Below are positions 4,082-35,412 of a DNA stretch of 64,000 nt, one piece after another (the first letter of the stretch is position 1; the number at the start of each line of letters is the position of its first letter). Origin of the DNA: Fodinisporobacter ferrooxydans. Its GTDB lineage: Bacteria; Bacillota; Bacilli; Tumebacillales; MYW30-H2. The DNA is taken from positions 2,559,501 through 2,623,500 of the forward strand of contig NZ_CP089291.1 of the NCBI RefSeq assembly GCF_022818495.1, written 5' to 3'. The position numbers and the translations under genes are program-made. The notes beneath the pieces were generated by a model. The model did no database searches, had not been told where the DNA came from, and was given only the letters and a program-made list of their open reading frames with translations.

Positions 4082-4235
4082 TGCGTGTTCAAAAAGTGGT
4101 TAAGTAAGACACAAGGAGTGCGAAGCCGAAGCACGAAAAGGCGACGGAGTGTACGTGTCTGGTACATGAGTAAGCCTTTGGGGGATTCGGCAAAGCAATC
4201 CGCCGTGGAGTTTTGACTACTTTTTGAACATCCTC
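4082..4235 (+). mobile_element. 154-bp MITE-like element, copy 1
   Basis: First of three near-identical 154-bp copies (others at 24634-24787 and 35259-35412, the last inverted). The ends carry an imperfect inverted repeat, TGTTCAAAAAGTRGTYAA, with two differences. The copy is flanked by the 6-bp direct repeat TAATAG (4076-4081 and 4236-4241), read as a target-site duplication. It holds no convincing gene and is too short to encode a transposase, so it must be mobilised in trans. It lies between the ROK gene start and the promoter of ABC system 1. The parent element is not in this window. Confidence 0.85.
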
Positions 4236-4485
4236 TAATAGTAATTTGTTTATTCATAAAATCAATTTAAGATGGTAAGGGCCTATTTGACTTCTGAATA
4301 TTTGATAGGGAACAGTTATATTTAGAAAGTTACACGTTTGATTCATGATCTGTCAAGTGATAAATTTCAAGCAAAACACTTGAAAATCAGGATGTAAATC
4401 CGATGTAAATCTTAATAAATTTAGAAAAATTCAAACTGCTAAGCCCGAAAGTCGAAAACTGTCAGATTATTTGGATTTTTATTTA

Positions 4486-24633: not shown

Positions 24634-24787
24634 TGCGTGTTCAAAAAGTGGTTATGTAAGGCACAAGGAGTGCGAAGCCGAAGCACGAAAAGGCGACGGA
24701 GTGTACGTGTTTGGTACATGAGTAAATCTCTTTGGGATTCGGCAAAGCAATCCGCCGTGGAGTTTTGACTACTTTTTGAACATCCTC
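24634..24787 (+). mobile_element. 154-bp MITE-like element, copy 2
   Basis: Same orientation and length as copy 1, with about a dozen differences or fewer by eye, mostly around the centre. The flanks TTTAAG (24628-24633) and TTTAAA (24788-24793) match at 5 of 6 positions, a slightly decayed target duplication. It interrupts the 3' end of the epimerase pseudogene. The short peptide readable from the complementary strand is a by-product of the repeat. Confidence 0.85.
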
Positions 24788-25179
24788 TTTAAATAGAATT
24801 TGTGATTTGTGCAATAAACTCATGGATTCATATGCTCTTAGATAAAATGGTTGGTATTTGTCCTGTATTTGAATCATTTTTATCCGATAGCAATCGTAAC
24901 TAATTGCTCCGCTACTGCAAACGGGAGAATTGTTAGTCTTAATCATCAAATACAATCGATGCGGTCGCTCTGGGATTAAGCTTCCGACGAGTTCTCTCGC
25001 TGATGCAAAGAGAGAGAATCGAACAAATTTTAGGGCGAAAATTTATGTGCGAAATTTAAAAAATAATTCATAGTTTCATGCTTAGTAGCGATCACCCTGG
25101 ATGTGATATGGCGGTATGTATGATTCACCGTTGATGTTGCATAATGGGTGATTTTTAATTGGCAAAATAGTTTTTTGGA

Positions 25180-34153: not shown

Positions 34154-34192
34154 AAATGATATATGTGGAATGAATAAGAAAGTTTGTGATGA

Positions 34193-34224
34193 AAGGTTCC
34201 TGGAGTTGATCAGGGGCCTTTTTT
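34193..34224 (+). terminator. Rho-independent terminator
   Basis: A 10-bp stem (34193-34202 with 34211-34220, two G-T pairs) has an 8-base loop and runs into six T residues. It closes the amidase gene and thus the mannosidase region. Confidence 0.9.
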
Positions 34225-34355
34225 GTGTTCAGGTACAACAATCAAAACACATGTTGTCACAAATTCTGACTAAAGGATGAAATCTAAAAAAATATCTTAA
34301 AATAGTGTTTTTTATTTGTATTTTCGATATAATTTAGTACTAAGGGGGAATCAAT

Positions 34356-34619
34356 GTGATCTTTAGCAAACTCCAAGTTCAGGTCAAAAAACAATTCGAC
34401 GTATATACAGTTGATCAACTTGTTCGAATTGCTAGTAGATTCCAATCGGATATTCATTTAGAGTACAATGGAAAACAGGTTGATGCCAAAAGTATTATGG
34501 GTATTTTTACTTTATTGATCGCCGTAGGATCAACAGTTGTAATCTCCGCAATGGGCAATGATTATCAGCAAGCTCTTGAAGCCATTTCAGCCTATATAAC
34601 ACAACCACCAAACGCATAG
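34356..34619 (+). CDS. HPr/Crh-like protein with Asp at the His-15 position
   Basis: An 87-aa protein of the HPr fold. KSIMG places the regulatory Ser exactly at residue 46, and FQSDIHLEYNGKQVDAKS matches the centre of Bacillus HPr. The catalytic His-15 block (GIHARP) is replaced by QFDVYT, with Asp at residue 15, so it cannot act as a phosphotransfer carrier. Crh of Bacillus, which has Gln-15 and serves only as Ser-46-phosphorylated CcpA co-repressor, is the nearest known concept. The GTG at 34356 follows AAGGGGG; a TATAAT lies at 34328-34333. It stands alone between terminators. With cre-like sites nearby it could mediate carbon control of these operons; its exact role is inferred. Confidence 0.8.
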   Translation: MIFSKLQVQVKKQFDVYTVDQLVRIASRFQSDIHLEYNGKQVDAKSIMGIFTLLIAVGSTVVISAMGNDYQQALEAISAYITQPPNA

Positions 34620-34632
34620 TGTCTGGTGGTTT
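34603..34632 (+). terminator. Terminator overlapping the stop of the HPr-like gene
   Basis: AACCACCA (34603-34610) pairs with TGGTGGTT (34624-34631) around a 13-base loop, followed by a short T-rich run. The stem includes the last codons of the HPr-like gene. Confidence 0.65.
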
Positions 34633-34682: not shown

Positions 34683-34856
34683 CTATTTATGATTCAAATC
34701 CACCGCGGTATCTTTCAGTATTTCCAATCGTTGTTCCTTCTTCAATTGACGTTTTATTTTCGATATGGTAATCGGATGAATCCCGGTTAATTGAGCCAAT
34801 TGTTTCTGATTCAATTTGTTTTGTTGTATTAATTTGGCAACGCGTAAAAGAATCAC
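34683..34856 (-). CDS. Small helix-turn-helix protein (57 aa)
   Basis: A 57-aa basic protein starting at a GTG with GGGAGGGG upstream. It contains LNQKQLAQLTGIHPITISKI, a clear helix-turn-helix, followed by a charged tail (KRQLKKEQRLEIL). It may be a minimal DNA-binding regulator or the N-terminal piece of a larger XRE-type gene. It converges with the HPr-like gene and has no obvious target. The strong ribosome site argues that it is translated. Confidence 0.65.
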   Translation of the reverse strand: MILLRVAKLIQQNKLNQKQLAQLTGIHPITISKIKRQLKKEQRLEILKDTAVDLNHK

Positions 34857-34985
34857 ATTGACCCCTCCCTCTATAGATAGATAGTAAGTATATTTTTGCT
34901 GGTTTATGGAGTGGTATCACAGTCTATTATAACGTATTAACTCTTTGATGTTAACGGTTTCATAAAAAAGTCACAAAATAGACAC

Positions 34986-35140: not shown

Positions 35141-35258
35141 CTATATGTACCGTTCGGTATACAGTGGTTTATGTTGTGCTACATATTCATCATACTTTTC
35201 GACTAAACTTGCAACTAAGGATTCACCGAAAAGCTTGGCAAAGCCAAATTTTCTTAAA
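35141..35258 (-). pseudogene. C-terminal gene remnant cut by the repeat element
   Basis: Reading leftwards from the edge of MITE copy 3, about 38 residues are open, including GFAKLFGESLVASLVEKYDE and ending with a TAG (complement of 35141-35143). The composition is protein-like, and the frame does not continue through or beyond the repeat. It looks like the 3' end of a gene truncated at the insertion. The family is not recognised. Confidence 0.35.
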
Positions 35259-35412
35259 GAGGATGTTCAAAAAGTAGTCAAAACTCCACGGCGGCTTGCT
35301 TTGCCGAATCCCAAAACGTCTTACTCATGTACCAAACACGTACACTCCGTCGCCTTTTCGTGCTTCGGCTTCGCACTCCTTGTGTCTTACTTAACCACTT
35401 TTTGAACACGCA
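35259..35412 (-). mobile_element. 154-bp MITE-like element, copy 3 (inverted)
   Basis: Inverted relative to copies 1 and 2 and the same length. A perfect 6-bp duplication, CTTAAA, flanks it (35253-35258 and 35413-35418). Read in the orientation of the other copies this target is TTTAAG, the same as at copy 2, suggesting a target preference. It abuts a truncated coding stretch on its left. Confidence 0.9.

Follow-up and report, generated by a model that had tools for sequence, protein, structure and literature searches.

The window analysed here, a 64,000-nucleotide stretch of the Fodinisporobacter ferrooxydans genome, encodes an 87-residue protein of the HPr family. With a probability of roughly 0.55, we read it as a third, Crh-like HPr paralogue that no longer serves as phosphocarrier, keeps only the HPr kinase (HPrK) input at Ser46, and either acts on another target or competes for HPrK. 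The Crh protein of Bacillus, which lacks His15, is a regulator only; the loss of the phosphocarrier site together with retention of the serine switch makes a purely regulatory role the most likely one here as well. This kind of protein is already known, and the variant with Asp15 and a fully replaced loop is new.

The protein and its replaced phosphocarrier loop

The open reading frame (Table 1) starts with GTG behind a good ribosome-binding site and matches the Pfam family PTS-HPr (PF00381) with 64 bits (E = 1e-17, cut-off 23). Its top NCBIfam model is PRK13782 (NF010354), which we take to be the Crh model; the score of 72 bits stays below the cut-off of 123. The alignment with HPr and Crh of B. 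subtilis runs without gaps through Ser46 and places Asp15, Val16, Tyr17 and Thr18 in the active-site loop and KSIMG at positions 45–49; phmmer likewise aligned residues 1–83 with Crh (1zvv) without gaps. Family membership, the aspartate at position 15, the replacement of Arg17 and Pro18 by Tyr and Thr and the intact Ser46, all proposed in the sequence-only reading, are thereby confirmed. Of the features expected of an HPr phosphocarrier, His15 and the Arg17/GxHARP loop are both missing. The sole histidine is His34 in strand 2, hence the protein has no alternative active-site histidine.

Table 1 Coordinates of the features (window positions unless a contig is named)
Feature	Position	Strand	Basis
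Terminator that closes off the preceding carbon-nitrogen hydrolase gene from the HPr-like gene	34191..34222	+	hairpin scan
TATAAT, possible -10, without recognisable -35	34328..34333	+	read from sequence; absent from promoter scan
Ribosome-binding site aaggggga	34343..34350	+	read from sequence
HPr-family ORF, 87 aa, Asp15, Ser46, GxHARP loop lost	34356..34619	+	ORF, Pfam, alignment, model
Codons 15–19, central part of the lost phosphocarrier loop, D V Y T V where HPr has H A R P A	34398..34412	+	alignment
Codons 45–49, K S I M G including Ser46, HPr kinase site segment	34488..34502	+	alignment
Hairpin across the stop codon, probable terminator (HPr-like and/or convergent gene)	34603..34631	.	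scored on - strand
HTH_3 (XRE-like) protein of 57 aa, encoded convergently with the HPr-like gene	34683-34856	-	
HPr relative in family f8, 81 aa, lacking the first strand and the His loop	L119:4974-5219; L216-L235	+ (L119)	

The AlphaFold model, calculated with a 39-row alignment, reached a pLDDT of 91.7 and has its elements in the order of HPr (E3-9, H16-27, E32-37, E40-43, H47-53, E60-66, H70-82). It could be superposed on HPr and also on the His15Asp mutant of E. coli HPr, with about 83 residues fitted at about 1 Å (Z about 17). In the model, Asp15 lies immediately before helix 1 (16–27), where it probably serves as an ordinary N-cap within a rebuilt loop.

The loss is confined to the phosphocarrier loop. 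Conservation was assessed with 67 HPr/Crh sequences, taking positions conserved in at least 80% of them, with 12–20 as the loop and 21–58 as the region outside. None of the five highly conserved loop positions is kept (G13, A16, R17, P18 and A19 are all lost) versus 11 of 11 outside (Fisher p = 0.0002); at a threshold of 70% the counts were 0/7 and 13/17 (p = 0.001). Near the surface for HPrK and CcpA, Phe, Thr and Leu stand in place of Met51, Ser52 and Ala/Gly54, which counts against the reading as a Ser46 regulator. In the class sample (398 other genomes), even the best matches begin to align only at residue 19–20, with about 52% identity. This concentration of the loss argues against a general decay and for a Ser46 face and a fold that are still needed; in the absence of an orthologue, selection on the Ser46 face is read from the pattern of a single sequence. 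Codon usage of the gene is similar to that of the adjacent genes.

PTS partners and relatives without His15

The genome is a single contig of 4.86 Mb with three HPr-family genes. The two others encode HPrs with His15: one is located directly after whiA (order rapZ-yvcK-whiA), the slot that crh occupies in Bacillus, and one within a fruR-fruK-fruA(EIIABC)-ptsH-ptsI cluster. The only enzyme I is a 433-bit match within this fru cluster; a second match to PF02896, in an 882-aa frame, is probably another PEP-utilising enzyme. Two complete HPr kinases have intact Walker A and signature segments. The CcpA model gave 29 matches, one of them clearly ahead with 406 bits (cut-off 442); the closest solved relative of this one is CcpA of B. 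subtilis. HPr kinase, enzyme I, true HPr and CcpA, for which the sequence-only reading had proposed a genome search, are thus all present, and neither of the two circumstances named there as contrary evidence, another histidine at the active site or a genome devoid of HPr kinase and CcpA, was found.

The second full HPr kinase/phosphorylase (PF07475 and PF02603; G000:C1:2787622-2788119 (-), L152:3971-4909) is encoded near yqeG-, yqeH- and aroE-like genes. Two full copies occur in only 4 of 61 relatives, among them the source genome and another that encodes a His-less HPr. A second HPrK dedicated to His-less HPr was considered and dropped, since all 37 genomes of one Bacilli family (f8, see below) encode a His-less HPr and many of them have no full second HPrK.

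No orthologue was found in the 398 other genomes of the class or in 13 of the order, and the plasmid, phage, viral and genome collections returned only ordinary HPr/Crh or His-less relatives. Across all collections and the class and order samples no relative exceeded about 55% identity, a figure that covers only part of the protein. The source genome is the sole representative of its genus and family in the compared set, so that the absence of orthologues is weak evidence.

The proteins brought up by the scan of genome contigs were mostly His-less ones from Clostridia. Instead of the GIHARP loop these have a segment shorter by three residues, and their Ser46 is embedded in (V/I)DAKSIMGIF. The sampled members form one clade (support 100/98). 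They share with our protein the lost active-site loop and the VDAKSIMGIF segment around Ser46, whereas its loop has retained the length found in HPr. These clostridial relatives were fetched with patterns including DAKSIMGI, and their perfect conservation of Ser46 is hence partly built in. The f8 relative, found by other means, is an N-terminally shortened protein of 81 residues present in 37 of 37 genomes (65–100% identity); each of the 13 sequences read has KSILG. It resembles the protein studied here in lacking His15, in keeping Ser46 and in coexisting with a normal HPr, but differs by the complete absence of the first strand and the loop. A whiA-linked Crh of a Lachnospiraceae genome has Glu15 (L041:5001-5264, plus strand). 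Glu15 also occurs on the contigs L153 and L155, the latter a human-gut contig labelled as phage (L155:1480-1760). The loss of the phosphocarrier site with retention of the serine switch is therefore not a peculiarity of Bacillus Crh; it recurs in several lineages with varying residues at position 15.

Two profiles were used to place the protein among these groups. It scored 75 bits against the HPr/Crh profile and 48 bits against the clostridial His-less profile, to which the HPr set scored at most 46 and clade members at least 90 bits. In phylogenetic trees it formed a long branch with a placement that shifted with taxon sampling, either with the clostridial clade (support 89/86) or on the Crh side, in no case significantly; a pairing with either HPr of its own genome was not rejected.

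His-less genes were also observed elsewhere. A single His-less HPr paralogue with Arg15 and KSPLG is encoded near ylbJ/ylbK/ylbL-like genes in genome G014 (L117:4956-5240, minus strand). Six IMG/VR contigs of 5–137 kb (L186, L187, L188, L190, L191 and L192) carry HPr-like genes without the histidine and with Ser46 near phage genes (e.g. L190:2962-3204, L192:2995-3183 and L186:2935-3156); L195 probably carries one as well. We group these phage-borne copies with the clostridial His-less proteins. Their neighbours include the anaerobic ribonucleotide reductase NrdD (L186, L192 and L195), an HNH/homing endonuclease (L190) and an integrase (L188). The copy on L190 had no match among the PHROG families. 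Within the literature covered, neither His-less HPr families nor phage HPr were the subject of any paper.

Function of the protein and competing explanations

For its mode of action we infer Ser46 phosphorylation, blindness to enzyme I and weak CcpA binding. At high levels of glycolytic intermediates, HPr kinase would phosphorylate the protein on Ser46. Enzyme I, which requires His15 and Arg17 of HPr, would be unable to use it, since His15, Arg17 and Pro18 are all missing. The interface of Ser46-phosphorylated HPr with CcpA includes His15 and Arg17; our protein has Asp15 and Tyr17 on the corresponding surface, and its Ser46-P form would hence probably be a poor CcpA binder. The protein thus most likely acts in one of two ways. 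Its free or Ser46-P form would bind another target, as does Crh of B. subtilis, which binds methylglyoxal synthase as well as GapA. The interaction of GapA with both HPr and Crh was described by Pompeo (2007, as cited in PMC12445079). Alternatively, the protein would draw HPr kinase off the two true HPrs. The combination of a missing His15 and a kept Ser46, fixed in family f8 (37/37) and found in the clostridial clade, supports the reading as a Ser46-only regulator, as do the HPr fold, the loss limited to the loop, the set of two His15 HPrs, enzyme I, two HPr kinases and a CcpA-like protein in the genome, and the in vitro Ser46 phosphorylation of His15Asp HPr.

The sequence-only reading had suggested that Asp15 mimics a permanently phosphorylated histidine, which would result in a locked, 'PTS-idle' HPr resisting Ser46 phosphorylation or CcpA binding. 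The literature on His15Asp fits in part, and the nearest experimental analogue of our protein is the engineered HPr with this substitution (T. saccharolyticum, Listeria and E. coli), identical at residue 15 and alike in fold, with only about 1 Å between our model and the E. coli mutant. In T. saccharolyticum, His15Asp was phosphomimetic and relieved catabolite repression, and the mutation is expected to disturb HPr–CcpA binding (PMC3526391). Listeria HPr with His15Ala or His15Asp lost more than 96% of the PTS activity, as cited in the same paper. A second acidic case is given by Glu15 in the whiA-linked Crh of Lachnospiraceae. The engineered proteins, however, are point mutants with an otherwise intact loop, whereas here Asp15 is one change in a loop of which none of the five conserved residues is kept: Arg17 and Pro18, needed for a surface like that of phospho-HPr, are lost along with G13, A16 and A19, and two normal HPrs stand alongside. 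Relatives without phosphocarrier function have Gln, Glu or no residue at position 15, so that their shared feature is the loss of the phosphocarrier site and not a mimicry of phosphohistidine. The related proposal that such a state weakens Ser46 phosphorylation is softened by in vitro reports, cited in PMC3526391, in which His15Asp HPr was still phosphorylated on the serine. We thus regard the mimic as unlikely. An acyl-phosphate on Asp15, by which a weak phosphocarrier activity would persist, is highly improbable; the PDB entries 1cm2, 1cm3 and 3ccd are among the structures superposed with the model, but the E. coli mutant keeps Arg17 and the remaining loop, which our protein lacks.

A true Crh, whose Ser46-P form would act as CcpA corepressor despite the altered loop, likewise appears unlikely. 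Crh proteins share the HPr fold, the missing His15 and Ser46 within KSIMG with our protein and are its nearest solved structures by sequence, including Crh bound to CcpA; moreover, PRK13782 is the best NCBIfam model and the genome encodes a CcpA-like protein close to that of B. subtilis. Yet Gln15, the G-x-x-A-R-P loop and the gene position after whiA, the latter occupied here by a His15 HPr, are features of Crh that our protein lacks. G13, A16, R17 and P18, present in nearly all Crh sequences compared, are all absent (0/4), and the score of 72 bits lies well below 123, a strict cut-off, since even the whiA-linked Crh with Glu15 does not reach it (97 bits). That the gene is a degenerating, functionless ptsH duplicate specific to this lineage seems rather improbable. 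The long branch and the lack of orthologues in the 398 class genomes, the 13 order genomes and the plasmid, phage and genome collections would fit a decaying copy, although the latter carries little weight with one genome compared for the genus and family; the open frame, normal codon use, confident fold and intact conserved positions outside the loop speak against it.

Should the protein be a target of HPr kinase that is unable to take part in sugar transport or CcpA repression, the two switches of HPr would here be separated by nature, and HPr kinase would have an output still to be explored. The wider pattern is of more interest than Asp15 itself. The Ser46-only type has become fixed in one Bacilli family of the sample and is present on phage contigs. 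Tentatively, the protein, the clostridial/phage His-less clade and the L119 family might together form an output arm of HPr kinase that is recurrent and independent of CcpA, consisting of small phosphoserine effectors which read the glycolytic state by one switch and have their own targets.

Surroundings and cre-like sites

The gene stands alone, as the sequence-only reading had stated, bounded by hairpins on either side. The hydrolase gene on its 5' side is preceded by genes for a GH38 alpha-mannosidase and an ABC sugar transporter. Upstream of the HPr-like gene the sigma-70 promoter scan found no site, and no -35 was recognisable, a point against the main reading. The cre-like sites reported earlier for these surroundings are in part borne out: the window contains seven matches with at most one mismatch versus 3.2 expected, but none at the promoter of the HPr-like gene, and cre control of this gene was rejected. 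The nearest site (34948-34963), a palindrome about 330 bp downstream, overlaps the -35 of an 11/12 sigma-70 promoter of the HTH gene (minus strand).

An interspersed repeat with an inverted end, AGAGGATGTTCAAAAAGTAGTC, occurs in three exact copies in the window (4215-4236 and 24767-24788 on the minus and 35258-35279 on the plus strand), where none is expected by chance. It was also observed upstream of the CcpA-like gene (in L143) and is possibly a miniature transposable element.
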